Assembly: GCA_024644385.1 (NCBI GenBank)
Contig: JAHELB010000012.1
Location: 1-37,892, forward strand
Direction: 5' to 3'
DNA length: 37,892 bases
Source of the DNA: Nitrosopumilaceae archaeon
GTDB lineage: Archaea > Thermoproteota > Nitrososphaeria > Nitrososphaerales > Nitrosopumilaceae
The notes below the pieces were generated by a model, which saw nothing but the letters and a program-made list of their open reading frames with translations, was not told where the DNA came from and ran no database searches. The position numbers and the translations under genes are program-made. Positions 21,188-36,875 of this stretch are shown here, piece by piece; position 1 is the first letter of the stretch, and every line of letters starts with the position of its first letter.

Positions 21188-23641
21188 CTAGGTAACCCTT
21201 ACCACGCCAATAAAGCTGGTATGGAGGAAAACCTGTCCTTCGGAATCAAATCCATCTAAAAATACATACATTCCATACCGTCCCTCAGGAATTAGTGGGC
21301 TTGACGGATTTCCTGGTTGTTCGCGTGGAATATCAAATTCAACAGGGGTTGAACTTCCTACATAAAGAGGAGTGCTGTCCTGGCTTGGAGTCAAGGCTGT
21401 TCCATTAGAACTAATAATAAAGGCAGCATATGGGGCCCCAGAAATCTCATCTTTAAAAATTACCCTGCTTTGGTATTTTATCCAGGTATCCTTTGGACCT
21501 GGATTAAAAATCCCAATTGTGCCAATTCCAGAATTGTCATACGTTGCATACCCTGGAAGACCCACGTCTGGAAGGGGGGGTTGAAGGAAACTGCTTTTCA
21601 GTTTTGAAACAATGTCTGTATCGTCTATTGCCATTTTCATATTCAGATTTCCTATACTTTTTGGTGAATATGTCATGTTAACCATCAACCTTTCACCCGG
21701 ACCGACAATCCTTTCTTCGGTTGTAGTTGCTGTAAAATTTACCTGACCCCAAATATCGCTAATTGGTGCGGCATATTCTCCAAAATCACTTGAATATGCT
21801 ATAGGAAAACTTGAAGTTTGGGCAATTGTTTTATTTGAAAATCCAAGATCTCCTCCAAATTCATCTACAATCCGCAAATCAAAATCCATCAGATGGCTGT
21901 CTATACCATAATTTGTATTAAATAAATCAGTAATCTCTTGCTCGGTACTTTCGTCTAAGGAATAATCATCCCAATGAATAATATCATCAATTAGGCCATT
22001 GAATCCATCAGTTCCACTGTCATCACTTGCACCAATGTAGATATTTCCAGAAAGATTGATGGCTCCATTTCCTCCATGGTTATCTGAATCCACTGAAATT
22101 CCATCCACAAACAATTCACAATCATTATCACTTGGCATTAATGCAACGAAATTATGCCATGAATCATCCTTATAGCTTAAAAGGCTAGTACAAGTTGCGA
22201 CCTCAGAGGGAGAACCTGCATCTATTTGATAAACCAACTGCCCAAGAGAATTTAGAAATATTTTATAAAAATCATTTCCACTGCTACTTTCTCCAAAATA
22301 TATTGTTTGATCACTTAATGGGCCTGAGATATTTGCTTTGAACCAGCCAGATGTGGCAGCTGGACTTGAGTCAAGGTCATTATCATCAGTTACATCTATG
22401 TATGCAAATTGATTTCCTGAAAATTCATAAGCACCTGCACCTTGATGTCCTGTTGCGTTCCATATGGGTCGATTGGAATCAGTACCCAAAGTCATTACAG
22501 TGTTCGTGGTACTGTCCAACGGCGAGTCAAGATCCTTTTCAAAATGATATGACATTGTTTCACTACTAGAACCAGAATGTAACAAACTCTCCGGCATTGG
22601 ACTGCTGATATATCGTATAACAGTATTCCAGTTTCCATCAGGAATATTTACCGTTACATTCCCGTCGGTATTTGTATAAAATATCGCATTAGTTGTACCA
22701 AAATCAATTACCTCTCCCAAATTATTTTCTGGTGAAGCAGACCACATCTGTCTTTCACCTAATGCATCAAAAGTTTCTTTATGAAAAAATAATAAATTTT
22801 GAGGAGTCGAGATAGTGGTCAAAAAACTGCTAACAAGAGAGCTTCCACTCTCTTCAGCAAATTCAACAACCTGAACCTCTACATCTTTAGTTACAGTATT
22901 TCCTGGAACTCCATTTAGAATGCTTGCCTGAAATCTAACTTTGTCATTATCCTCTCCAGAAATTCTATATGTCCACTCAAAAATCGCTGTTTCACCTTTT
23001 TCTAAAACTGGGTGAGGTACTGGGGAAGGACCTTCTAGTTCAGCTGTGCCTCCTAGAGAAATTACATTTAGTAACGGCTGAATATTTGTGTAAATAGTAT
23101 TCTGAGTAGAATTGTTGGTTACGGCCAATAAAATGGTAGATTTAAAATTGGTTGGCACTACCTCAGGCAATGCAAATAACTGCAAGTTAAGGGGATCAGT
23201 TGATGCATTTACGGAGAATTCTTTTGTAGTTCCCCTATCTGTAACTAATTTCATTTTGTATGTTTCAGTTTCCAATGCTGTAAAAGACAAGGTTTTGAGT
23301 ATGTCCTTAGCAGTATTTCCAGTGGTTATAGAACTGTTTAAATTAAATTTATAGACTTGATCAACACCTGTAACATTTTCAACCCATAATCGAGTAAAAG
23401 AAACAGGGATATCCCCTGAATTATATATGTCTAAATTAATTTTATTATTTTCGATTGTTAATTTTGAAATATCAAAAGATTCTTTTTTTCTATTCTCTCT
23501 TTCCTGTTCAACGGCAAATACATTTTCGGAAAAATTTTCAAATAGATTCATGCTATAAGTTAGATAACTAGCTGCAGTAATTATTACAATAAGGAAAAAA
23601 ACACCTCCTACAACGGTGGTTAAACCTCTCCTTTTTTTCAT
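21188..23641 (-). CDS. Giant pilin-like adhesin: class III signal peptide plus LamG/concanavalin-like domain
   Basis: The N-terminus MKKRRGLTTVVGGVFFLIVI is an archaeal class III (prepilin) signal, with probable cleavage after Gly6 and a hydrophobic alpha-1 stretch to about residue 30. A beta-rich ectodomain follows. Residues about 365-575 look like a LamG/concanavalin lectin sandwich (GAYEFSGNQFAYIDV, SWHNFVALM, CELFVDGISV, GLIDDIIHWDDYSL). The last 240 residues are further beta-sandwich. At 817 aa it is several times longer than ordinary pilins. Its ATG overlaps the stop of the small pilin gene upstream by four bases. I infer a pilus-tip or minor pilin adhesin for carbohydrate or surface binding. 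Confidence 0.85.
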   Translation of the reverse strand: MKKRRGLTTVVGGVFFLIVIITAASYLTYSMNLFENFSENVFAVEQERENRKKESFDISKLTIENNKINLDIYNSGDIPVSFTRLWVENVTGVDQVYKFNLNSSITTGNTAKDILKTLSFTALETETYKMKLVTDRGTTKEFSVNASTDPLNLQLFALPEVVPTNFKSTILLAVTNNSTQNTIYTNIQPLLNVISLGGTAELEGPSPVPHPVLEKGETAIFEWTYRISGEDNDKVRFQASILNGVPGNTVTKDVEVQVVEFAEESGSSLVSSFLTTISTPQNLLFFHKETFDALGERQMWSASPENNLGEVIDFGTTNAIFYTNTDGNVTVNIPDGNWNTVIRYISSPMPESLLHSGSSSETMSYHFEKDLDSPLDSTTNTVMTLGTDSNRPIWNATGHQGAGAYEFSGNQFAYIDVTDDNDLDSSPAATSGWFKANISGPLSDQTIYFGESSSGNDFYKIFLNSLGQLVYQIDAGSPSEVATCTSLLSYKDDSWHNFVALMPSDNDCELFVDGISVDSDNHGGNGAINLSGNIYIGASDDSGTDGFNGLIDDIIHWDDYSLDESTEQEITDLFNTNYGIDSHLMDFDLRIVDEFGGDLGFSNKTIAQTSSFPIAYSSDFGEYAAPISDIWGQVNFTATTTEERIVGPGERLMVNMTYSPKSIGNLNMKMAIDDTDIVSKLKSSFLQPPLPDVGLPGYATYDNSGIGTIGIFNPGPKDTWIKYQSRVIFKDEISGAPYAAFIISSNGTALTPSQDSTPLYVGSSTPVEFDIPREQPGNPSSPLIPEGRYGMYVFLDGFDSEGQVFLHTSFIGVVRVT

Positions 23642-24087
23642 GGCCCCATAACATAAGTTTGATAGATAGAACCTTTTTCGGTAGTTATGGTAACCTGAAT
23701 AGGATCAGTTGTTGTCCAATTGTAAGTAATCTCTGTTGATAAAATATCGTTACGATGGATTCCTCCATTTGTAACAAGTAAATTAGTTTTATCCACAGAA
23801 TTATCTAAGGTTATTTTTGTAACATTTAATCCGTTGTTTCCAACGTTGCTCATTGTTAAATTTATAAATTTATTGGGATTGTTTCCAAACCAAATGTTTT
23901 CAATTACTAAAAATTCGTTTAGTTTGTTTACCCCCTCAGAATAAACTGTATTAAGTTCATTTTGTTCTGCTGCAAATATGCTGTTTGACCAAGCGGTTAA
24001 CATGCTCCCCATAATAGCTACTGCGGAAAGCAAAATCCCGGTTGAAACAATGGTAGCTAACGCTCTGCGTTTGGTATGCTTACCCAT
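23638..24087 (-). CDS. Type IV pilin-like protein, 149 aa
   Basis: Class III signal: MGKHTKRRALATIVSTGILL, with the basic KRRA before the hydrophobic helix and probable PibD cleavage after Ala9. The mature part starts with the hydrophobic alpha-1 helix and continues as a beta-rich head with N-glycosylation-like sites (NLT, NVT, NWT). Its stop overlaps the start of the LamG pilin-like gene (ATGA), so both are made together. It could be the minor pilin that carries the large adhesin. Confidence 0.87.
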   Translation of the reverse strand: MGKHTKRRALATIVSTGILLSAVAIMGSMLTAWSNSIFAAEQNELNTVYSEGVNKLNEFLVIENIWFGNNPNKFINLTMSNVGNNGLNVTKITLDNSVDKTNLLVTNGGIHRNDILSTEITYNWTTTDPIQVTITTEKGSIYQTYVMGP

Positions 24088-24162: not shown

Positions 24163-24999
24163 TCAATTATGCCCAGAGCAAGGTTTTCCACACGCAGGGC
24201 ACGAGTCATCTAAAGAATTGTCTCTAAACATGCCTATCTGGTTTGAGATTCCAAATCCAAACAGTGCATAGGTCCAGAGGAATAAAATCTCCACTAGATG
24301 ACCTGGGTAGTATTGATTTTGAAGAGATAGGAATAGAACGCTATTATCACCAATAATTTGTGTAATTATTCCTAAAGATAATAGAGATATCATAAAATTT
24401 ACGCCTCCCTTAAAAAATAAAATCACACCAATGATTGCAGGAATTAAAATAATAGAATCTAAGATTGGGTATGCAAACAATACGAGATAATTTTTACTCA
24501 GCAAATCTGGCTCTGAGTCAATAATCATTATTAAAGATGGGATTAGAAGAACCATTGAAAATAAAGATATGCATACTACTAGTTTTTTTGAAATCTGTTT
24601 TAAAAATGGTCTTAAATAAAAAACAAGAGATGCAAAAAACAATTGGTATCCCGTAATATAGAAAAAATCATCTGCGTACTCCCAGGCATTTGTACCTAGA
24701 ACTATGTTATAAAAAATATCTACCGTTTCAGCGCAAAACCAGTATGCTGAAAACAACATAAATAAAATCCATGCCTTTCCATGGTTTCCTTTTGTTCCAT
24801 ATTTTGAAACCATGAAAAAAGAGGTAATCATAACAATTCCCGAAAGAACCGAAGACAAAAATTTTGTAGAATTTTCGGCTGTTTCTTGTCCCACAATATT
24901 TGCCAATAAAAGAATTGATGTAATACCTAATAGCGTAAAAAGAAGGTATTCCTGTACATTAAATCTGTGATAAAATATTTGCAAGAAATTACCTCGCAA
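24163..24999 (-). CDS. Polytopic membrane protein with Cys/His C-terminal tail
   Basis: About eight hydrophobic segments are visible (for example YLLFTLLGITSILLLANIV, SLFSMVLLIPSLIMII, ILDSIILIPAIIGVILFF). The protein ends DDSCPACGKPCSGHN, a CxxC plus Cys and His that could hold a zinc or metal ion outside the membrane core. TTG start at 24999 overlaps the MoxR gene by 11 bases. It sits between the MoxR ATPase and two pilins. It could be the substrate or membrane anchor of the MoxR-VWA pair. No family was recognised. Confidence 0.75.
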   Translation of the reverse strand: MRGNFLQIFYHRFNVQEYLLFTLLGITSILLLANIVGQETAENSTKFLSSVLSGIVMITSFFMVSKYGTKGNHGKAWILFMLFSAYWFCAETVDIFYNIVLGTNAWEYADDFFYITGYQLFFASLVFYLRPFLKQISKKLVVCISLFSMVLLIPSLIMIIDSEPDLLSKNYLVLFAYPILDSIILIPAIIGVILFFKGGVNFMISLLSLGIITQIIGDNSVLFLSLQNQYYPGHLVEILFLWTYALFGFGISNQIGMFRDNSLDDSCPACGKPCSGHN

Positions 25000-26275
25000 T
25001 AATTTTTAGAAATTCTTGTACAGGTTTGGATGTAGACATACCATCAAGATTTTTCTTAATAGAATCAATAATTGTAACATATGCTTTTCCATAAATGTCT
25101 TTAAGGATTCTATTAAGAAATTCAGGTTCATCATAGCAATCTGCAAGAGTTCTGTTATAATCGTCCATCAATCTTTGTTTTACTTTATTCAAATCTGGTT
25201 TTCCGATTTCAAGTAATGATTTTTCAATCGCCGTAATTATCAAAACCTTTGGATCATCACTTGTTTGAATGACTCCCCAATCCACCGATTTTATGATTTT
25301 TCTTACCTCTTCTTGAACTTCAAAATCATCACTAGTCATTGCAACTAGGGTTTCATTTCCAGCATCAATTGGAGAAGAACCATCTGCTATAATTCGTGCC
25401 CAGTTTGCTAAATCTCCTACTGAAGGACCATAGGGTAGATCACCTGATTTGTATTCCTGGCGTAATTTTGCAGCAACCTGAACAATGTTTGCTGCCGTTT
25501 CTCTGAAAATTCCAGAGCGTTCAATTAGAAGGTTAATTTCTTTTTCATCAATATGATTATCTACACTCATGTAATCAAAATTCAACCAAACACTCATTCT
25601 TCTTCTAAATGCTGCGTTGAGAGGTTTAGTTCCAGTAAATTCAGCTGAAAAAGGGTTCATACTGATAATCATGTAGGCATCTTTATGACGAGTGATAAGC
25701 TCGTTATCTTTTTCATTTAATACCATGTGACCTCTAGCATCTAAAATTGGATTTAGTTTTGTTGCTACATCTTGCTTCATCATGTTTGCCTCATCAAGAT
25801 AGAGTATCCCACCATGTCTACACCAAGAAGTAATAACGCCATCAATCCAGTTTTCTTTTCCTAAACCTATGTATCTTCCAAACAAATCATATGCGGAAGT
25901 TTGTAACCCACAGTTTATTTCCCATAATGGAAGTTGAGTTAATTCTGCTACCAGATAAATAATGTGAGTTTTTCCGGTACCACTAGGTCCAATACAAGCA
26001 CATTGTTTGAAGTAACCCAATGCTCTGACTATTCGTTCAACATAATTTTCACCATTATCATAGTATGGAGGAGTATCAGTAGGAATGAGTTCCTCCATTT
26101 CAGGAGGGAAATTAAATTTATCTGGATTTATGTATTTTTTAATATCATATTGATGTAATTTTGTTGTATCTATTTTTTTATTTTTTGAGAAATTAATTTT
26201 AAGGCTAAACGCATCATTATCTATTTTAGAAGTTTGACGATTTTTAACATTGCCTTCAGAAGTACCTGAAATCAT
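24989..26275 (-). CDS. MoxR-type AAA+ ATPase with shared C-terminal domain
   Basis: A 428-residue protein. Walker A is GPSGTGKT (residues 96-103), Walker B is ILYLDEAN (157-164), sensor 1 is ISMNPFS with Asn207, and arginine-finger candidates are Arg224-226. The core resembles the MoxR/CbbQ/NorQ group, which with a VWA partner remodels or metallates target complexes. Residues 349-428 form a separate domain matched without gaps by the C-terminus of the response regulator at 34883-35530. ATG start. It is first in a leftward operon and is divergent from the genes leading to the VWA protein. A role in pilus assembly or control is inferred from location. Confidence 0.9.
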   Translation of the reverse strand: MISGTSEGNVKNRQTSKIDNDAFSLKINFSKNKKIDTTKLHQYDIKKYINPDKFNFPPEMEELIPTDTPPYYDNGENYVERIVRALGYFKQCACIGPSGTGKTHIIYLVAELTQLPLWEINCGLQTSAYDLFGRYIGLGKENWIDGVITSWCRHGGILYLDEANMMKQDVATKLNPILDARGHMVLNEKDNELITRHKDAYMIISMNPFSAEFTGTKPLNAAFRRRMSVWLNFDYMSVDNHIDEKEINLLIERSGIFRETAANIVQVAAKLRQEYKSGDLPYGPSVGDLANWARIIADGSSPIDAGNETLVAMTSDDFEVQEEVRKIIKSVDWGVIQTSDDPKVLIITAIEKSLLEIGKPDLNKVKQRLMDDYNRTLADCYDEPEFLNRILKDIYGKAYVTIIDSIKKNLDGMSTSKPVQEFLKIIAR

Positions 26276-26399
26276 TAAATTTAGTTATTGTAAATGGGTT
26301 AAACAAAAGAGATGTCTTGTCATGCTACAGACAGGCTGTTAATTACCTATAATCAAGATATTAGTCATGTTTCATGAGGTAGAAGTATCTAATTTAATG
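26276..26399. promoter_or_regulatory. Divergent promoter region of the pilus island
   Basis: This AT-rich gap separates the leftward MoxR operon from the rightward VWA-pilin-motor operon. TATA-like stretches are visible on both strands (ctaaatttaatg reading left, cctataatcaag reading right), and ACAG-aca-gg-CTGT near 26329 is a short dyad. It is the natural control point for the island. The elements are read by eye. Confidence 0.5.
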
Positions 26400-26915
26400 T
26401 TTAATAAAACTTCAAGTGATCCAATTGATTTTAAAAAATATGACATTAATGTTGATCTTGAAGAGAAATCAAGCAATGATCAAAAAACAATTCTAAAATA
26501 TTCACTAGATTTAACCTCAAATCCCAAAAATGCAGTAATTAACATTAGTGGAAACACAACCCTTAACGGGGAACAATCAGAAATAGAACAATTTCTAAAG
26601 CAAGAAGATAAAAAAACTCCAGAAGTAGTTTCTTTAATTTATCAAGAATTATTTCCTTTAATGTATATAATTTCTAAAAATATGAATATTCCTTCACCAG
26701 CTCATACAATCTCTCAAAATAATGTTAATCCAACAGAAGAGCAAGAAAAACCAATAGAAAAACCTATTGAAACGCCTTTGGAAATTCCATCTGATAATAA
26801 TCAAAATCAAAATGAGGATAATCAACAAACACAAGAGAGATTACCAGACAATGAGATTAGCAATAATTCCCAATCAGATATACCCGAAAAACAAAATAAT
26901 GAAATTGAATCTTAA
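26400..26915 (+). CDS. Hypothetical protein with beta-helical head and disordered tail
   Basis: ATG at 26400 gives MFNKTSSDPIDFKKYD; the frame also allows ATG at 26367. The head has alternating strands (ILKYSLDLTSNPKNAVINIS, GNTTLNGEQSEIEQF) and a helix (EVVSLIYQELFPLMYIISKN). About 75 residues rich in Asn, Gln, Glu and Pro follow and are probably disordered. The strand-plus-helix plan recalls the SecB-like chaperone fold, but only loosely. It precedes the VWA gene by nine bases, implying co-translation. A delivery or chaperone role is speculative. Confidence 0.65.
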   Translation, partial: FNKTSSDPIDFKKYDINVDLEEKSSNDQKTILKYSLDLTSNPKNAVINISGNTTLNGEQSEIEQFLKQEDKKTPEVVSLIYQELFPLMYIISKNMNIPSPAHTISQNNVNPTEEQEKPIEKPIETPLEIPSDNNQNQNEDNQQTQERLPDNEISNNSQSDIPEKQNNEIES

Positions 26916-26924
26916 TGATGAGAA

Positions 26925-28481
26925 TTGCAACAAACTTTTCTTGACATAATTTATAAAATTTTTTACGATACTTCACAACGAGATTTTAAAGATGTCAAAC
27001 TATTACTGTCTGAAAAATTTTCTTATCCATCGATTGGGTTTGAACCACAAATCGAAGTAAAAATACCCATTCCAAAAAAAACAAATGGTGGATTATTGTA
27101 TTCAGGTTATTTTTTTGAAGACTCCAAACAAGAACAAGCCGCCTGGGGGTTTTTTTTAGCAACGGTTTATCACCTTGCAGCACACGTGGCAGTTTCAAAT
27201 TACTCAATATACAAGAATTGGGTCAAAAACAAAAATCCTAGAATTTTTTGGAAGGTTATTGATTTTATTGAAGATGATGCTGTGGAACGATATCTTTCAT
27301 CAACTAATCCCGATGTTTGGGCAAATATTTCCCAAATCAAAAAAAATTTTGAATATTCTCACGGTGTTGATAAAAATGAATCCATTTTTAGAGTAAAATT
27401 TGCCTCCAAAAAATTAAATTCATTAAAAGAAGAAATGAGAAATGAACCGCTCTTGTGTTTCGACACTGAGCACGAAAATCATGTACTTGAATGGGCTACA
27501 GATTTATATGAAAATCAGCAAATCTTGTATAAGGAATCTCCGTTTTACTATGAACAACGCAATTCAAATCAATCATTAATTTTTAAAAAAAATAAAATAG
27601 AATCATTCCAATCAGGGAAATTTAAAAATACAATTAATAAATTAAATTTTTTATATGATGAAGAAAAGGAACGATTAGAACATATTTTACATAAAATACG
27701 TAAAGACACTGTAGGGTTAAATTTTGATGAGATAAGTTTGCCCAGCGAAGATATTTTTGAATACTATCAATTAAAAGAAAAAAATAAAAAAATCATAAAA
27801 AAAATTAGAGAGCAAATTAGAACTGTGTTTAATAATTCAGAGGATCCACAAACTAATTTTTACGGTGAAATAGATATGGAGTTGGCAATTCAAGCAATTG
27901 CAAGTCATTCTGAAAGATATGCGGAGGTTTTCAATAAGACTGAAGAGCAAAGGATTGAAGAAACATGGGCCATATTGGTTGACAATAGTGCAAGTTTAAG
28001 ATTGAGGTTTGAAGAAGTTAAAGATTTTATGCTCTGTCTTGCCGAAGCTTCTGAGGAATTAACAGGCCCCTCAGGATCATGGGGCCTTTATAGTTACGAT
28101 CAAAAATTTTCCATATTAAAAGATCATAAAGGGAAATACAATCAAGATGTGCGAGCCAGATTAGGAGGTTTGCACAGTGGAGGTTTATCATATACACCTG
28201 ATGCGATATTATTAGCTGGGAGAATGCTGGTCAAAAACCCTGCAGATTTAAAACATCTTTTTGTGTTTACCGATGATTTTCCAACTGGATTGTGGAATTA
28301 TGATCAAAAATTATACCTTGCAATTAAAGAGGTAGAACGAATGGGTGTGGAAGTAATTGGAATTGGATTATCATCAAATATCTCAAAATATTTCTCAGAC
28401 TCCTGTTGGGGTATAAATATAAGAGACCTGGTAAATAAATTTGTGAGGATTTATCGTATGAAATCATTAAAATTCATATAA
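26925..28481 (+). CDS. VWA-domain protein, NorD/CbbO/ViaA type, partner of the MoxR ATPase
   Basis: The C-terminal third is a VWA domain with a complete MIDAS: Asp353-x-Ser355-x-Ser357 (DNSAS), Thr424 (GGLSYTPDAI) and Asp450/451 (FTDD). The N-terminal part carries YHLAAHVAV and FIEDDAVERYL, resembling the His...His...ED-x-x-x-E pattern of NorD/CbbO-type proteins. The start is TTG at 26925, nine bases after the previous stop. Such proteins dock targets for MoxR/NorQ/CbbQ ATPases in the cytoplasm. Here the partner gene is on the opposite strand, sharing the divergent control region, and the pilus motor genes follow downstream. Confidence 0.87.
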   Translation: MQQTFLDIIYKIFYDTSQRDFKDVKLLLSEKFSYPSIGFEPQIEVKIPIPKKTNGGLLYSGYFFEDSKQEQAAWGFFLATVYHLAAHVAVSNYSIYKNWVKNKNPRIFWKVIDFIEDDAVERYLSSTNPDVWANISQIKKNFEYSHGVDKNESIFRVKFASKKLNSLKEEMRNEPLLCFDTEHENHVLEWATDLYENQQILYKESPFYYEQRNSNQSLIFKKNKIESFQSGKFKNTINKLNFLYDEEKERLEHILHKIRKDTVGLNFDEISLPSEDIFEYYQLKEKNKKIIKKIREQIRTVFNNSEDPQTNFYGEIDMELAIQAIASHSERYAEVFNKTEEQRIEETWAILVDNSASLRLRFEEVKDFMLCLAEASEELTGPSGSWGLYSYDQKFSILKDHKGKYNQDVRARLGGLHSGGLSYTPDAILLAGRMLVKNPADLKHLFVFTDDFPTGLWNYDQKLYLAIKEVERMGVEVIGIGLSSNISKYFSDSCWGINIRDLVNKFVRIYRMKSLKFI

Positions 28482-28625
28482 ATTTTATAATTTTTAACAA
28501 AATTTTTAAAAAAATAATAATAATTTGTAATAAATTAGTACCACAAAATAAGGACAGAGATATTGTATGTCCAAAAATATTACACATTCGATCCTATAAC
28601 CTCACATGATGAATTTCTATTAATA
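28482..28625 (+). promoter_or_regulatory. Probable promoter and leader of the major pilin gene
   Basis: This 144-base stretch before the pilin ATG is extremely A/T-rich. It has several TATA-like runs (tttttaaaaaaataata near 28503, ctataac near 28594). A frame extending upstream from the pilin to TTG at 28563 is not needed, because the class III signal begins at the ATG at 28626. It probably gives the pilin its own strong promoter inside the rightward gene row. Confidence 0.4.
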
Positions 28626-29291
28626 ATGAAAAACCACGTTTTCGCAAAAAGAAAAGGTATCAGTACAGTGCTTACTACTGTAATCATTCTGGTAGCTTCA
28701 GTAGTTCTCGGATCGGGTGTAGTTTTGTATGGAACAAGCATGTTCCAAACAGTAGCCCAAGAACAGAGTATTGATGTTGAAGGAATTCAGATTTGGGTAA
28801 ACGCTACAGATCCTTTAGGTGATGCGTGGGGAGCAGCAGGTGTTAGAAATAATGGTGATCAAGTTCTAGCTGTCGATACCATTTCTGTCAAGGGTACAAA
28901 CGTACCATTTACAAGTTGGTATTTTGACAAAGATCAAGTTAGAGTTTCAGCAGAAAACTGGCAGAATACTTTCGTTCATGAAGGTACTGGCGGTGTTGGA
29001 ACAATAATGAACAATTCACCGGAAGTTACAACTTCTTGTCCCGTAACTGGAGTTACAACAATTGAAATCGACATTGATGGTGGTGCAAGCAATCCAAATG
29101 ATGCATTACCAACTATGTGTTTAGAACAGGGTTCAGGTCCAATTGGACTTAGTCCAGGGGAGAGAGCAGTAGTCTACTTCCAAATTCCACAAGAGAAAGT
29201 CACAACACTTGATGCAGGTGCTTCAACTACATTGAAAATCTTTGCTGGCGAGGCAGGAGCTCCCCTTAGTACAATCATCACAAACCCATAG
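28626..29291 (+). CDS. Type IV pilin/archaellin-like protein (probable major subunit)
   Basis: From ATG at 28626 the protein reads MKNHVFAKRKGISTVLTTVI, a class III signal with likely cleavage after Gly11, then a hydrophobic helix (ILVASVVLGSGVVLYGTSMF). The ectodomain of about 170 residues is beta-rich with NAT and NNS glycosylation-like sites and one Cys pair (TSCPVTG, TMCLEQG). Length (221 aa) fits a main archaeal pilin. It has its own AT-rich leader and is followed by a terminator-like hairpin, suggesting high expression compared with the motor genes just downstream. Confidence 0.9.
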   Translation: MKNHVFAKRKGISTVLTTVIILVASVVLGSGVVLYGTSMFQTVAQEQSIDVEGIQIWVNATDPLGDAWGAAGVRNNGDQVLAVDTISVKGTNVPFTSWYFDKDQVRVSAENWQNTFVHEGTGGVGTIMNNSPEVTTSCPVTGVTTIEIDIDGGASNPNDALPTMCLEQGSGPIGLSPGERAVVYFQIPQEKVTTLDAGASTTLKIFAGEAGAPLSTIITNP

Positions 29292-29343: not shown

Positions 29344-30891
29344 ATGAAACCAATTAATGAAAATCAAATTGAATTAGAAAATATTCTAAGTAAAGAACTG
29401 TTAGATGAAAAAACTATCAATGAAATTTCGACTCAATTCAAGGTTGTAAAAGAATATCCTTTATTAGCGCCTTTCAGCTATGCAAAGATTTTGTTTGATG
29501 AAAAAAATTCTAATTTTCAGTATTTCGTTGATGAGATTAAATTAAATTTTGAGGAGGAAAGAATTTACAAAGATCTCTATACATTTGTTGAACAAAGTTT
29601 GGATTCCTTAGAGCATACAAAAGAAGAAAATTTTGATGTTCATTTAAACAGAGTAATCAAAAACAATGAGGGGTTTTTTATTGCAAATCCCGTCGCAAGC
29701 ATGGAGAAGGTAAAATATTTTCTAAAAAAGGACATAATGGGTTTTGGTGAAATTGACGCCTTAATGCATGACCCAAATATAGAAGATATTAGTTGTAGCG
29801 GTCCAAATTTGCCCCTATACGTATGGCATAGAAATTATGACAGTATTTCTACAAACATTTCTTTCGAATCTCATCAAAAATTAAATTCCTTTGTTACAAG
29901 AATTGTCTTCAAGTCTGGAAAACATGTAAGTACAGCACACCCAATTTCTGACCTTGCATTGGCCGGAAATCATAGAATTTCGGTCTTGTATCAAAAAGAG
30001 ATCACTCCCAAAGGAACTAGTTTTACCATACGAAAATTCAAAGAAGACCCATACACCATCATAGACCTAATTAGTTTTGGGACAATAGATCTTGAAACAG
30101 CTGCATACCTTTGGATGATGATTGAAGCAAAAATGTCAATAATGATAATTGGTGCAACAGGTAGTGGTAAAACAACGGTACTTAATGCCATTGCAGGACT
30201 AGTAAGTGAAAATGATAAACTTTTTTCCGTTGAAGATGTTGCAGAGATTAATCTTCCTCATGATAACTGGTTTTCATTAATTTCTCGTTCTGGATATGGG
30301 TCTAATGATGAAGGGGAAATAGGATTATATGAGTTAATTAAATCAGGAGTAAGGCACAGACCAGATTACATTATCGTCGGTGAAATTAGAGGCTCTGAAG
30401 CTTATGTAATGTTTCAGGCAATGGCCACAGGTCATGGAGGCTTGTGTACGATGCATGCAGATAGTTTAGAATCAGCAAGTAAGAGATTACAACAAAAACC
30501 CATGAACATACCTCCTGCTTATCTTTCCCTGATGAATTGTGCCCTAGTAATAAAAAGAGTCAAGGATAAAACAACTGGGAAAAGTATGAGACGTGCACTA
30601 TCCATTGAAGAAATCTCTCCTACAACCACCCCAACTTCCATAATAAAATGGAATCCTAAATCTGATTATTTTGATCATTCCTTTGATGCGAGTAAGAATC
30701 TTAAAAAAATCTCTGAGCACACAGGTGATGAATTTAGTGAGGTGTTAGAAGAACATCAAAAAAGAACAAAAATTTTGAAATGGATGTCGTCTAATAATAT
30801 TCGACAACATAAGGAGGTCACAGAGATGATTAGAAAATATTACAACGATCCAAAACCAGTTCTGAAAAAGATCAATTATGGTGATGATTGA
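29344..30891 (+). CDS. Type IV pilus/archaellum-type secretion ATPase (FlaI/PilT/VirB11 family)
   Basis: A 515-residue protein. Residues 1-250 are an N-terminal domain with AMP-contact sequences typical of FlaI (DIMGFGEIDALMHDPNIEDI). The ATPase core has Walker A GATGSGKTT (270-278), the Asp-box region FSVEDVAEINLP, Walker B-like IIVGEIRGSEA (343-353) and the His-box CTMHADSLESASKRL. It powers insertion of pilins into the filament and works with the FlaJ protein encoded two bases downstream. No ArlH, ArlF, ArlG or ArlX gene was recognised beside it, so a pilus motor is more likely than an archaellum motor. Confidence 0.93.
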   Translation: MKPINENQIELENILSKELLDEKTINEISTQFKVVKEYPLLAPFSYAKILFDEKNSNFQYFVDEIKLNFEEERIYKDLYTFVEQSLDSLEHTKEENFDVHLNRVIKNNEGFFIANPVASMEKVKYFLKKDIMGFGEIDALMHDPNIEDISCSGPNLPLYVWHRNYDSISTNISFESHQKLNSFVTRIVFKSGKHVSTAHPISDLALAGNHRISVLYQKEITPKGTSFTIRKFKEDPYTIIDLISFGTIDLETAAYLWMMIEAKMSIMIIGATGSGKTTVLNAIAGLVSENDKLFSVEDVAEINLPHDNWFSLISRSGYGSNDEGEIGLYELIKSGVRHRPDYIIVGEIRGSEAYVMFQAMATGHGGLCTMHADSLESASKRLQQKPMNIPPAYLSLMNCALVIKRVKDKTTGKSMRRALSIEEISPTTTPTSIIKWNPKSDYFDHSFDASKNLKKISEHTGDEFSEVLEEHQKRTKILKWMSSNNIRQHKEVTEMIRKYYNDPKPVLKKINYGDD

Positions 30892-30893
30892 TA

Positions 30894-32333
30894 ATGTTAT
30901 CAATTAGTAAAATTAACCAAAAAGGATTTGAGCACAAGCAAGGCGGGAAAATCAATAAAGAATTACCTTATTTTATTACAATTGTAACTCTGCTTAGCAG
31001 TGCTGGAGTCGGCCCATATTTTATGCTGCAACGGGTAAAATCAATGGAGTTGTTGCCAACTATCAGGAATGAAACCAGCAAAATGATTAAACGGATTGAT
31101 TTGTTAGGGGTAGATCCGCTAGAGGTAATGCGTCAGGTAAGAACTCGTGCTAGCTCAAAGGCGTTGGGGGAATTTTTTGATGGGTATGTTGCAACTGTAG
31201 AAAGTGGTGGAAATTTAATTAACTATCTTAAAAGTAAAATGAAAACAATTTTTGATAGACATGCAGAATCCCAAAAACAGGCAGTAGTCAAATTAGGAGC
31301 TCTAGTTGAGGCCTATATGACCATTCAAGTTGTTTTATTGGCAGTTTACATTATTAGCGCCGCAGTAATCTCGGATCCATTTGCAACATCTGAAACCGGA
31401 ATAAGCAGTGAAGTAATATTTTTGATTTTAACACCAGCAATATCATTTCTGTTTCTTTTAGCAGCAAATAAAAATTCTGTCTCAAAAAGTCCAGAAATTA
31501 GCATAAAAAAAATTATTATGTTTGGAGCTCCGGGATTAATTGTAAGCGGGATTATAATTGGATTGGGTTTGATTCCAGATCCCTTAATGGAGCCTTACCT
31601 GTTAGGAGGTGCATTTATCGCATCTTCAATTGTCCCAACAATATATTTTAAAAAATTATATGCAAAAACAATTTCTGCTGAAGACTCTACACCTAAAATT
31701 CTTCGAACTATTTCAGAAGCACGAAAAACAGGAATGAGTCCCGAAAGTAGTGTAATTCATGCTTGTAAAAGAAAAGAATATGGGATGTTTAATTCTGTAG
31801 CAAATGGAATTGCAAATAAAATAGAATGGGGTGTTGACTTTAAAACAATATTCAAAGATTTACAAAGAGAAATTCAAGCCTTTAATGTTTTGATTAGTTT
31901 CAACATATTATTTGAGTTAATATCCGCAGGTGGAGGAAATCCGCAAACACTGGATTCCTTAACAGAGACCTCGGAGAGAATGCAAGAAATTCAAAAGGAA
32001 AAAAGAGATCTTTTGATGCCGTACTTGTTTGTAGGATTTGTTTTAATGGGGACCACTGGATTTACAACTTTGTTAGTTATTGACTCTTTTGGAGATATTG
32101 CTCAAGAAAGTCAAGATCTCTCAAACCTGGAAGGTGAACTCTTAGGATCTTCATTAGGTCTTTTCCCGCTTATTGTATTGGTTCAATCATGGTGTTCAGG
32201 ACTATTTCTGGGCAGAGTAATAAAAGGAGCATTTTCTGGAGGGTTTTTCTATTCAATAATATTGGTGATAATGACCTTGATTGGAATAACCTTGATTCAA
32301 TTCTCGATAATAGATGTAAATTCTCTGTTCTAG
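30894..32333 (+). CDS. Type IV pilus/archaellum platform membrane protein (FlaJ/TadC type)
   Basis: ATG at 30894 follows the ATPase stop by two bases; an upstream TTG overlap start is less likely. Two type II secretion F-like domains are visible: SSAGVGPYFMLQRVKSMELL with GYVATVESGGNLINYL, and again ISEARKTGMSPESSVIHA with LFELISAGGGNPQTL. Several membrane helices lie between and after them (VVLLAVYIISAAVI, FGAPGLIVSGIIIGLGLI, SIILVIMTLIGITLIQF). The protein is the membrane platform that anchors the ATPase and the growing filament. Length (479 aa) is in range for this family. Confidence 0.92.
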   Translation: MLSISKINQKGFEHKQGGKINKELPYFITIVTLLSSAGVGPYFMLQRVKSMELLPTIRNETSKMIKRIDLLGVDPLEVMRQVRTRASSKALGEFFDGYVATVESGGNLINYLKSKMKTIFDRHAESQKQAVVKLGALVEAYMTIQVVLLAVYIISAAVISDPFATSETGISSEVIFLILTPAISFLFLLAANKNSVSKSPEISIKKIIMFGAPGLIVSGIIIGLGLIPDPLMEPYLLGGAFIASSIVPTIYFKKLYAKTISAEDSTPKILRTISEARKTGMSPESSVIHACKRKEYGMFNSVANGIANKIEWGVDFKTIFKDLQREIQAFNVLISFNILFELISAGGGNPQTLDSLTETSERMQEIQKEKRDLLMPYLFVGFVLMGTTGFTTLLVIDSFGDIAQESQDLSNLEGELLGSSLGLFPLIVLVQSWCSGLFLGRVIKGAFSGGFFYSIILVIMTLIGITLIQFSIIDVNSLF

Positions 32334-32402: not shown

Positions 32403-34865
32403 TTGAAAACTGTATTGTTCCTAGTGTTGATTGTAGCAACAATAATCATACCCAATGTAAATGCGCAAGAGTCCAAAGATTTTGGATACAAGATGATGCC
32501 TGAAAAACTCGTTGAAGGGACTGATGGTATTTTACAAGTTTATGGACTTCAAAAAAATATTCCGGTTTCAAATTCCATTAATGATTTGATTGTTACTTCT
32601 TCTGATCAACGAGTAATTCAGATTTTGGAATTATCTACAAATACAGAAACCTCTATCACAACTGTAAGATTAAGAGCCGTTGATTCTGGAACTGCAAATA
32701 TTGCAATCGCTGCTCCCGGGTTTACATCAAAAGAATTTTCAATTACTGTTTATGACATTAAACAGGGAGGACAGAAATTATTAGTAAAGACAGTTCCAGA
32801 TACATTCACAATCAATGGTCCCACACAGGGATATTTTTCAGTAGAGCTTGCAGATGTTGATTCCAACCCTACGTTGGCCAAGCAAGATACCATAATTTCA
32901 ATTACTGCATCAAATTCTGAAATCGTCAATCTTTACCAAAATGAAATAATGATAAATGAGGGAGAATATTTTGCCATTGGAGAATTTCAGGCAATTAAAC
33001 CAGGTGAGGTCACAATATATGCAGAGACACCAAACACAGATTCTGGAAGCAGCAAAATCAAAGTATTTGGTGCCGCAGGAGAGGATTCTGATAGTGAGGA
33101 TGAATATACAATTCAACTATATGTATTGCCAGAAAAAATTAGTAATTTTGCTACCTCTAGTACTTTTGCAATTGTTCAATTACAAGGACCAGATGGATCC
33201 CCCATTAAGGCAACCAACACCATTCCAGTTTCATTAAAAATCGACCACGCTAAATCAATTTTTAATGATAATAGGAGTAATGTAATAAGCACTGTAGATT
33301 CTCTGGTAATTCCTCCCGGTTCTTCTACTGGATATGCCAAATTATCTGTAAAAGCAGGCGTACAAGAAACTTACAGTGTAAGTATATCGGCAGAAGATTA
33401 TCATGTTTCAAACCCTGTAAAATTTCAAACAGTCTTAACACCCGATGTAAACTCACCGCTGACAAAATTGGAAACTATTCCATTAATGGCCACAGGATCC
33501 GAACAACTCATTGGAGTGCTATACCCGGCTGATGAAAACGGTGTCTCCTTGATTAACTTGCAAACTGTAGAATCTGAAATTTATTCTTCTGATAGAGATG
33601 CTTTGACGATATCGGATGACAGAATGGGGAAAGGTTCAGGTGCCAAATTAATTTATGGAAAAGTAGGGCAAACTGTAATAGATCGACTGATAGTTACTAT
33701 TGTAGGGGAAGAAATAGAAACCGTATTTCCAATAGTGTATGGACCTGAAAGAAATGAGCTTGAATTAGTTTCTGAACCCTTGATCTCCAAAGTAATGCCA
33801 GGTACAAGTTTCCCCATGATGGTGTATCTTATTGATGAGGACGGCGCTAGTTGGTATTTTCCAGACACTTCAAATGTTGTTATGGGTCCAAATGAATATG
33901 TAAAAACAACAGTTCAAACTATTAGTGAAGGACAATCCATAAGTATGTTAAATTCAAAATCAATAAAGGAGGGGAAAACAACTCTTGCCTTTGAAGCAAA
34001 TAAATTTACCAGCACTGTAGGTTTTGATACCGGAATTTCAAAAACTTCTAAAATCGCATTAGCATCTCCAGACCATTTGTTAACTGGAATGAAAAATACA
34101 TTATCACTGCAAATTTTAGATATTGATGGTAATCCTATTTTTGCAAATAAAGATATTGAGTTTAGAATAGCAACCAATGATAATACTATTGAAATGCCTC
34201 AAACTGTAACCATCAAAAAAGGAACCTATAATTCATTTTTTGATATTATTCCAAAACAACCAATTGAAACAGAAATTTCTATCCTCGCAAGTGATTTTCC
34301 ATTATCAAAATTTAATCTCAATACTGTTAAAACAACTCCATCATTAATCATTTCAACGGTAAACTCCATTACGTCGGGAGAAGCTTTTGATTTAGTTTTA
34401 GATGCCAAAATTTTGGATGTTCCAATTAGCAATGTTGAGATAAATTGGGATATTCAGGGTGCACAAATCCAAGAAATCTCCAAAGTTACTGATAATAATG
34501 GAAAAATCAAACTGTCTTTGCTGGCAGGCGATCCAGGAATGATTACCATTCGAGCAACCACATCAGAATTTGATCAAATAACAGCATCAAAACAGATCAA
34601 AATAATGGCTCCGGGCCAAACAGTTGCTGGTACTACTCAAAATGAAGATTTCTTAGGAGGAAATATGGTGCTGATTCTTATTCCAGGAGTGGTGATTGGA
34701 AGCGGCATTCTCTTACGCAAAAGGAGTCTACTTGAGCCGATTTCTGAGAGATTTCCCTTTTTTGAAAGCGTCCTAGATAAATTTGATGTAATGTTTGAAA
34801 AGATGGAATTTTCTGAGAAATTTGAAACAATCAAAGAAAAGATCCCTATAATTAAAAATAGGTAG
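32403..34865 (+). CDS. Secreted, membrane-anchored beta-sandwich (Ig-like) surface protein, 820 aa
   Basis: The TTG start at 32403 gives the signal peptide MKTVLFLVLIVATIIIPNVN with cleavage near NAQ. No ATG is available upstream in frame. The body is a string of beta-sandwich-like segments (AVDSGTANIAIAAPGF, AIKPGEVTIYAETPN, LLAGDPGMITIRATTSEF), with the Gly-x-x-x-Ile-x-x-x-Ala motif typical of bacterial-Ig-like folds. A single membrane span near the C-terminus (MVLILIPGVVIGSGILL) leaves about 50 charged residues inside. It follows the FlaJ gene by 69 bases and may form part of the surface scaffold or S-layer-associated stalk for the pilus. Confidence 0.85.
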   Translation: MKTVLFLVLIVATIIIPNVNAQESKDFGYKMMPEKLVEGTDGILQVYGLQKNIPVSNSINDLIVTSSDQRVIQILELSTNTETSITTVRLRAVDSGTANIAIAAPGFTSKEFSITVYDIKQGGQKLLVKTVPDTFTINGPTQGYFSVELADVDSNPTLAKQDTIISITASNSEIVNLYQNEIMINEGEYFAIGEFQAIKPGEVTIYAETPNTDSGSSKIKVFGAAGEDSDSEDEYTIQLYVLPEKISNFATSSTFAIVQLQGPDGSPIKATNTIPVSLKIDHAKSIFNDNRSNVISTVDSLVIPPGSSTGYAKLSVKAGVQETYSVSISAEDYHVSNPVKFQTVLTPDVNSPLTKLETIPLMATGSEQLIGVLYPADENGVSLINLQTVESEIYSSDRDALTISDDRMGKGSGAKLIYGKVGQTVIDRLIVTIVGEEIETVFPIVYGPERNELELVSEPLISKVMPGTSFPMMVYLIDEDGASWYFPDTSNVVMGPNEYVKTTVQTISEGQSISMLNSKSIKEGKTTLAFEANKFTSTVGFDTGISKTSKIALASPDHLLTGMKNTLSLQILDIDGNPIFANKDIEFRIATNDNTIEMPQTVTIKKGTYNSFFDIIPKQPIETEISILASDFPLSKFNLNTVKTTPSLIISTVNSITSGEAFDLVLDAKILDVPISNVEINWDIQGAQIQEISKVTDNNGKIKLSLLAGDPGMITIRATTSEFDQITASKQIKIMAPGQTVAGTTQNEDFLGGNMVLILIPGVVIGSGILLRKRSLLEPISERFPFFESVLDKFDVMFEKMEFSEKFETIKEKIPIIKNR

Positions 34866-34882: not shown

Positions 34883-35530
34883 TTAAGTATTCAGAGCCTC
34901 TAGAAAATTTTCAGTTGATTTATGAGAAGAAATACTTTTAATATTTTCCTTCAAGGAATTTAATACATCGTTGTAAGAGTCACCCAACAAGTCTTGTAAA
35001 ACCTGTTTTAAAATTTCTGGATTGTCATAACAATCTTCTAGGGTGCTATTATGATCTTTTTGTAACATTAAAACAATTTTATCAAATTCCTCTAATCCTA
35101 ACTCTAGAAATGTATTTTTTATGGCCAAAGTAACCATAGTTTTTTTCATCTGATCTACAGAATCCCCTGTTGGAAGGCAAAGTTTATGAGTTTTTCTTAA
35201 AATGTCATCAACATCTATGGGTTCTCTAATTACAGCAGATGGTTTTAAGCGATTTAATTCAATTTCTTTATTGATGCTTAATTTATCATAAATTACAATA
35301 ACATTTGCTTGTGGATTTGTATCACGTATTTTTTGTAATGCAAAGATTCCGTCATAAATAGGCATGATAATATCTAAAAATAAAACATCAGGTTTTAATT
35401 TTTGAAAAAGAAATATGGCATCTTGACCATTATGGCCTTTCCCTACAACCTTAATTCCATTACTAGTAAGAAGTTCACTGAATAATTCTATAGTTTCTTT
35501 ATCGTCGTCTATTACTACGGCTCTAATCAA
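34883..35530 (-). CDS. Receiver-domain response regulator with shared C-terminal domain
   Basis: Residues 1-115 form a REC domain: acidic pocket Asp8-Asp9, phospho-acceptor Asp53 (VLFLDIIMP). The usual Thr/Ser (near residue 81) is replaced by Tyr, and the Lys of the Lys-Pro motif is replaced by Glu102-Pro103 (IREPID), so switching may be atypical. There is no DNA-binding domain. Residues 134-213 match the C-terminus of the MoxR ATPase without gaps (29 of 80 identical by hand). It is convergent with the surface protein gene and divergent from the short TrmB gene. A regulator of the MoxR-VWA machine is inferred. Confidence 0.88.
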   Translation of the reverse strand: MIRAVVIDDDKETIELFSELLTSNGIKVVGKGHNGQDAIFLFQKLKPDVLFLDIIMPIYDGIFALQKIRDTNPQANVIVIYDKLSINKEIELNRLKPSAVIREPIDVDDILRKTHKLCLPTGDSVDQMKKTMVTLAIKNTFLELGLEEFDKIVLMLQKDHNSTLEDCYDNPEILKQVLQDLLGDSYNDVLNSLKENIKSISSHKSTENFLEALNT

Positions 35531-36185: not shown

Positions 36186-36875
36186 ATGATCGAATTTGAT
36201 ATTATGCACATTCGAATTTTACTTGCTTTGGTAATGTTAAGTGCTGCTACAATAATCGACATTCGCAAACGAGAGATATCTGACTTAATGTGGATAATTT
36301 TTGGAATTATTGCAGTAATTCTTGTATTCTTTGAACCAAATTTAGTGGAGGCAGCACTAGGAATTGGATTCTCTTTAATTGTAGCACCTCTGGTACTGAT
36401 ACTATGGAGGTTTGGATTATTTGGCGGAGCTGATGCATTGGGACTGATTGTACTATCGGCCCTAGCACCAATGGCTACTTTGTCTGATTCAGCAATAAGT
36501 CCATTTACGATTCTAGTTAACAGCGCTCTACTTTCAATAACCCCTATGATATTCAACTTTATACGAAACTCTGTATTAATTTTAAGTAGTGTAGATATCT
36601 TCCAGGACTTTGATGAACCAAAATCAAAGAAAATCTTTGCAATGTTTCTTGGGTATAGATCCAAAAATCCAAAATACAGTTTTTCATTAGAAAGAACAGT
36701 AGGAAAGAAAAAAAGATTGAATATAGCATTACATCATTCAGATTCTGCAGAATACTGTACAACCCCTGATACTTGGGTCACCCCAGGATTGCCTTTTATG
36801 ATTTTCATTTTAGGAGGGTTTATTGTACAGATTCTATTTGGAGATGTTATTCTAGGATTGATCGGCCTTACATAA
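36186..36875 (+). CDS. Archaeal type IV prepilin peptidase (PibD/FlaK family, A24)
   Basis: A polytopic aspartic protease. The two catalytic aspartates are Asp25 in ATIIDIRKREISD and Asp83 in FGGADALGL, the archaeal form of the GxGD motif. About six hydrophobic segments are visible, including the last (FMIFILGGFIVQILFG). A cytoplasmic loop of about 70 residues (near 130-200) is charged. It should cleave the class III signals of the pilins at 23638-24087 and 28626-29291 and of the LamG adhesin at 21188-23641. ATG start at 36186. Confidence 0.92.
   Translation: MIEFDIMHIRILLALVMLSAATIIDIRKREISDLMWIIFGIIAVILVFFEPNLVEAALGIGFSLIVAPLVLILWRFGLFGGADALGLIVLSALAPMATLSDSAISPFTILVNSALLSITPMIFNFIRNSVLILSSVDIFQDFDEPKSKKIFAMFLGYRSKNPKYSFSLERTVGKKKRLNIALHHSDSAEYCTTPDTWVTPGLPFMIFILGGFIVQILFGDVILGLIGLT

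Follow-up and report, generated by a model that had tools for sequence, protein, structure and literature searches.

Type IV pilus loci of thaumarchaea are known to contain a pair of genes for a MoxR/GvpN ATPase (arCOG00441) and a vWA protein (arCOG02900), for which a regulatory role has been proposed, and a KaiC-like ATPase goes together with a DEATH-like protein, arCOG03758, in archaeal type IV pilus loci (Makarova et al. 2016, PMC4858521). RavA, a MoxR-family ring, carries an accessory docking domain, LARA, by which LdcI is bound (PMC6987120). A third line of earlier work concerns NitrOD5. REC-NitrOD5 and stand-alone NitrOD5 proteins are found in Nitrosopumilales and the domain belongs to an archaeal death-domain-like family (Galperin et al. 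2018, PMC5847659). We found no function assigned to NitrOD5 in the literature searched.

The stretch of DNA analysed here (37,892 nucleotides from a Nitrosopumilaceae archaeon, referred to as the window) carries a pilus locus that resembles these systems in part. It shares with the arCOG00441/arCOG02900 pair the type of ATPase, the VWA partner and the kind of locus, but the ATPase of its relatives has no C-terminal NitrOD5 and is encoded beside the VWA gene, and the window differs in both respects. With the arCOG03758 system it has in common a small helical death-like protein beside an ATPase in a pilus locus, a likeness of gene arrangement; there the protein is the product of a separate gene next to a KaiC-like ATPase, whereas here NitrOD5 is fused to MoxR. 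In two genomes (G083 and G089), PF11537 (NitrOD5) members above the Pfam cut-off are encoded between the pilus TadC gene and the KaiC-like ATPase, and a third (G086) shows only the NitrOD5-HTH-KaiC part of this arrangement, which is the one reported for arCOG03758 (PMC4858521); such separate genes are an independent parallel to the MoxR fusion. The domain itself is known, and what is new here is the MoxR fusion, the pairing with the gene of a membrane protein (TM278) and the divergence of NitrOD5 and TM278 in step. The passages of PMC5847659 consulted contain no mention of a MoxR fusion or of a TM278 gene partner, nor did we find an earlier description of the NitrOD5-TM278 link in the open-access literature searched, where NitrOD5 is named by a single paper.

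The domain shared by MoxR and a receiver protein

The two proteins that carry the domain in the window have the following parts:

24992-25240, minus strand: NitrOD5-like domain of MoxR, residues 346-428 (E=1e-18 by BLASTP against the REC copy; model pLDDT 91.9)
25283-26275, minus strand: MoxR/GvpN/CbbQ-type AAA+ ATPase core, residues 1-331 (Pfam AAA_5 6e-21, CbbQ_C 2e-13)
34892-35143, minus strand: NitrOD5-like domain of the receiver protein, residues 130-213 (BLASTP, Pfam)
35144-35530, minus strand: receiver (REC) domain of the REC-NitrOD5 protein, whose whole frame is 34883-35530 (Pfam Response_reg 8e-16)

The ATPase has the AAA+ core, the CbbQ_C domain and the VWA gene in the locus that mark the MoxR/GvpN AAA+ proteins (CbbQ/GvpN/NorQ group), and its Walker motifs GPSGTGKT and LYLDEA are invariant in the alignment. 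A sequence-only reading of the window had pointed out that MoxR and the receiver protein end in the same 80-residue segment, aligned without a gap and with 29 identities. A single BLASTP comparison bears this out, matching MoxR residues 343-424 to receiver residues 130-211, ungapped, with 30 of 82 positions identical and 54 of 82 positive (70 bits, E=1e-18), and the motif NxTLxDCYDxPE occurs in both proteins as that reading had stated. Its 80 residues lie inside the domain, although the N-terminal edge is slightly further out, at about MoxR 343-346. When the MoxR segment is compared with all six reading frames of the genome, the receiver protein comes next after the query itself (E=1.9e-16). 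Three more NitrOD5-like copies turn up: another REC fusion (C58), one stand-alone protein (C85) and a weak match with an HTH-like tail (C9, E=0.002). Judged by these scores, the similarity of the two segments is far beyond chance.

The same reading knew of no named family for the segment and took the receiver to be without an output domain. Both statements have to be given up: sub-threshold Pfam matches, profile-profile comparison and PMC5847659 identify the domain as NitrOD5 (Pfam PF11537, 'Nitrosopumilus output domain 5'), and the C-terminal segment of the receiver protein is this catalogued output domain. As single sequences, the MoxR and REC copies score 14.7 and 15.1 bits against PF11537 and do not reach the cut-off of 27 bits; the best REC-NitrOD5 relative scores 25.1 bits over positions 4-87 of 94, and 17 of 42 family members show a weak PF11537 match (best 1.5e-5). 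When the 42 members were compared by hhalign with a profile of six PF11537 matches, three of them over the cut-off, the probability was 97.4% (E=1.1e-11, 78 columns). The AlphaFold2 model of the MoxR copy (pLDDT 91.9) has five helices, and its sole high-probability Foldseek match is PH0832 (PDB 2p9x; probability 1.00, TM 0.68-0.71, though E=0.04), which the profile of PF11537 matches also finds by sequence (E=2e-6). PH0832, deposited as a hypothetical protein, has the same all-helical fold as the domain described here, but is a stand-alone Pyrococcus protein with 16% identity. On the profile-profile comparison (E=1e-11) and the fold match to PH0832, the domains of MoxR and of the receiver are divergent members of NitrOD5. 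They share with the NitrOD5 of PMC5847659 the size, the occurrence in REC-fused and stand-alone forms, the distribution in Nitrosopumilales and the presence of several copies per genome, and differ in scoring below the Pfam cut-off (about 14-15 against 27 bits). Matches of the model to pyrin domains are weak (Foldseek probability ~0.2, TM ~0.25), and the domain itself has five helices in the model, the Greek-key death fold of eukaryotes six. Conserved positions are D49, C50, P54 and L57, in the numbering of the modelled 98-residue segment. Interferon-gamma and ribosomal P0, which came up in a PDB sequence search, matched in weak, low-scoring pieces and were taken as chance.

It is a true mobile domain, shared by an ATPase and a receiver protein. 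A profile of the family finds further members in 63 of 250 genomes of the order, and with a profile from a deeper alignment the NitrOD5-like domain is found in 95 of the 300 genomes surveyed for the class, the majority of them belonging to a single family; the genomes surveyed are mostly metagenome assemblies. The majority of copies stand alone, with a length of about 94-120 residues, and profile searches and loci show both the stand-alone and the REC-fused architectures in Nitrosopumilales. Four proteins (L184, L185, L189 and L193) carry an N-terminal zinc-ribbon-like segment, CPDC...CxNPxC, which in L184, the one compared with Pfam, gives a weak TFIIB zinc-ribbon match. In two others (L005:1156-1758 and L106:20493-20990) the NitrOD5-like segment is followed by an HTH-like region, whose sequence suggests DNA-binding forms; a different membrane-protein gene adjoins that of L005, in divergent orientation.

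Fusion and gene order in one genus

The remaining features of the pilus locus are:

21188-23641, minus strand: large secreted LamG-domain (concanavalin-like) protein (Laminin_G_3 2e-13)
23638-24087, minus strand: pilin-like protein, ancestral neighbour of o182 (conserved order)
24163-24999, minus strand: membrane protein TM278, with eight helices; its gene overlaps the end of moxR (gene pairing; homology to a kinase N-terminal domain)
26367-26915, plus strand: conserved protein o182; in related pilus loci its gene diverges from moxR (conserved neighbour)
26925-28481, plus strand: VWA-domain protein, usual operon partner of MoxR (Pfam VWA_2 3e-7; gene order)
28563-29291, plus strand: pilin-like secreted protein (no Pfam match; conserved between VWA and secretion ATPase)
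29344-30891, plus strand: type IV pilus secretion ATPase, FlaI/TadA family (T2SSE 2e-36; FlaI-like NCBIfam match)
30888-32333, plus strand: pilus membrane platform protein, TadC/FlaJ (T2SSF 4e-16; UpsF/FlaJ NCBIfam matches)
32403-34865, plus strand: large secreted protein with Ig-like repeat (Big_1 2e-6, below curated cut-off)
36186-36875, plus strand: prepilin peptidase, FlaK/PibD (Peptidase_A24 3e-8)

The LamG protein is a candidate pilus adhesin.

MoxR is fused to NitrOD5 in all eight genomes of the genus that carry moxR, in frames of 431-449 residues; the named relatives in the genus are Nitrosopumilus sp. and metagenome-assembled genomes of Nitrosopumilaceae or Thaumarchaeota (85-95% identity). 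By comparison, the frames of 29 moxR orthologues from the family's other genera, most of them ~70% identical, do not exceed 364 aa. NitrOD5 is absent from the 22 with ends that were read, which stop soon after residue 331, and the others are no longer than these. No MoxR with NitrOD5 was found in 73 named loci outside the genus, Bathyarchaeota included. Within the genus, the fused NitrOD5 has a pN/pS of 0.14 (median dS ~1.4); the AAA core has 0.08, and the N-terminus plus linker ~0.22. The fused domain is under purifying selection.

Gene order differs together with the fusion. Related pilus loci have the ancestral order o182< moxR> VWA>, and the seven named loci of the genus all have VWA< o182< moxR-NitrOD5> TM278>, so that in the window the VWA gene is displaced to the other side of o182. 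These orders fit an inversion of o182-moxR plus the gain of a NitrOD5-TM278 pair, and the TM278 gene was probably gained together with the NitrOD5 domain at moxR. An intermediate with an unfused NitrOD5-TM278 pair behind moxR was not seen among the loci examined. The domain is short and the deep branches of its tree are poorly resolved; in this tree the MoxR copy lies in a different part from the REC copy of the window, weakly separated. Recent duplication of the REC domain next to it as the source of the MoxR domain is not favoured by the tree but not rejected either, the AU p-value for a common clade being 0.35.

The TM278 gene as a neighbour of NitrOD5

TM278 is a protein of 278 residues that matches no Pfam family; its stand-alone homologues have 260-290 residues. 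Outside the genus, and counting one locus per genome, NitrOD5 is encoded directly upstream of stand-alone TM278 in 19 of 22 loci, and TM278 lies directly downstream in 10 of 22 stand-alone NitrOD5 loci of other genera; as the loci were fetched through best matches, these fractions are not a census. The genes of many such pairs lie within 4 bases of each other or overlap, and six REC-NitrOD5 genes are also directly followed by TM278. The three stand-alone TM278 genes that have no NitrOD5 (L078, L086 and L092) all occur in one different gene context. An adjoining TM278 is lacking in about half of the stand-alone NitrOD5 genes that were examined, so the domain has other partners too.

Long homologues of TM278, of about 580-640 aa, have the TM278 domain at the N-terminus, and two of the three compared with Pfam are histidine kinases (HisKA plus HATPase_c). 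The third (L198:2004-3923, 640 residues) gives a weak metalloprotease match (Peptidase_M10) near the C-terminus, below the cut-off, so that the TM278 domain may have further fusion partners. Some NitrOD5-TM278 pairs adjoin a separate kinase frame that is too short for both parts.

Pairwise distances of NitrOD5 and TM278 are strongly correlated (r=0.78, 33 pairs), and when the pairs were thinned to 19 diverged ones the correlation was r=0.51, a value that none of 5000 permutations reached; this co-divergence may partly reflect species history.

The TM278 linked to MoxR ends in a Cys-rich tail, CPACGKxCxGHN (window 24163-24205), which most of the genus has and which the other TM278 homologues fetched do not show; it is a possible metal site. 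The fold matches of TM278, to rhodopsins and GPCRs, were set aside, with E>0.2 and low TM-scores, and a PepSY-like N-terminus suspected by eye in L179 and L180 had no Pfam support (L179).

What the fused domain may do

The gene most strongly linked to MoxR-NitrOD5 is TM278, directly behind moxR, and not the receiver. On balance, with some reservation, we favour the reading that NitrOD5 is an adaptor docking MoxR onto the membrane sensor TM278 in the type IV pilus locus. NitrOD5 would then be a helical adaptor of the NitrOD5 superfamily (archaeal death-domain-like) with a TM278-family membrane sensor as common partner, a sensor that is also built into histidine kinases as their N-terminal domain. 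The NitrOD5-TM278 gene pair would have come behind moxR in the pilus locus, and an in-frame fusion would have joined NitrOD5 to the ATPase. Through its NitrOD5 domains the MoxR ring would dock on the cytoplasmic face of TM278, which might thereby recruit or gate a MoxR-VWA remodelling machine acting on the pilus. The proposal resembles RavA, as an analogy of function, in that a docking domain contacts another complex and a VWA partner is present; but the LdcI-binding LARA domain belongs to RavA (PMC6987120), and NitrOD5 is another kind of helical domain, for which a membrane protein is the proposed partner. The arrangement suggests that the ATPase has been plugged into an existing membrane signalling module.

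The sequence-only reading had seen in the shared domain a docking or dimerisation module that wires a phospho-signal to the ATPase. Docking by an adaptor is still the best reading; it is the phospho-signal that has lost ground. If the two NitrOD5 domains paired, phosphorylation of the receiver could control assembly or activity of the MoxR ring. Death-fold-like domains do self-associate, although the fold matches to pyrin domains are weak here; in the window, as in L099, L104 and L105, the two genes belong to one pilus locus, the receiver keeps its Asp8-10 acidic pair and the phospho-acceptor Asp53, and the AU test does not reject a common clade of the two NitrOD5 copies (see above). The conserved Lys before Pro104 (KP motif), however, is kept in six of six other receivers aligned and is Glu in ten of ten receivers of the window type, so that the window receiver is REC by homology and atypical by residues, falling short of the full set that defines REC. 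In G271 (named relative L102), moreover, the REC-NitrOD5 gene of the pilus locus is interrupted by a stop codon (C41:26960-27217), with MoxR-NitrOD5 and another REC-NitrOD5 intact; in other genera, the 1.5 kb examined at REC-NitrOD5 genes of the window type contain no pilus gene of the window; and the best-linked partner gene is TM278. The receiver may still be active, for instance without phosphorylation, yet the evidence does not point to it in particular as the partner of MoxR, and we consider control of the ring by its phosphorylation unlikely.

The fusion might instead be neutral, a rearrangement having set the pair behind moxR and a stop having been lost, with the domain tolerated and useless to MoxR. 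Its limitation to one genus, where it coincides with the altered gene order, would agree with this, and since the domain still adjoins the TM278 gene, TM278 alone could hold it under selection. Against it, the fused domain is intact in all eight genomes at the pN/pS and median dS given above, and a stop that would free NitrOD5 again, though easy to regain, is seen in none of the genus genomes; a useless domain seems quite unlikely to us. Related domains with an HTH-like tail (C9, L106) or a zinc-ribbon-like N-terminus bring to mind a further role, in which NitrOD5 would regulate MoxR allosterically by binding a small molecule or a nucleic acid, but D49, C50, P54 and L57 suggest no recognised ligand site and no ligand-binding NitrOD5 member was found in the literature searched, which leaves this reading improbable.

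The adaptor reading can be widened, tentatively and at less than even odds, to a split system of ammonia-oxidising archaea, in which TM278, freed from histidine kinases, would signal through NitrOD5 to exchangeable effectors. A kinase encoded apart or a receiver could serve as such an effector and, in this genus, so could the AAA+ remodelling ATPase; the MoxR fusion would then act on the type IV pilus as an output that needs no kinase. With the TM278 pair and the MoxR fusion, NitrOD5, a domain numerous in these archaea, gains a first testable partner, and the MoxR-VWA pair of thaumarchaeal pilus loci a testable input.
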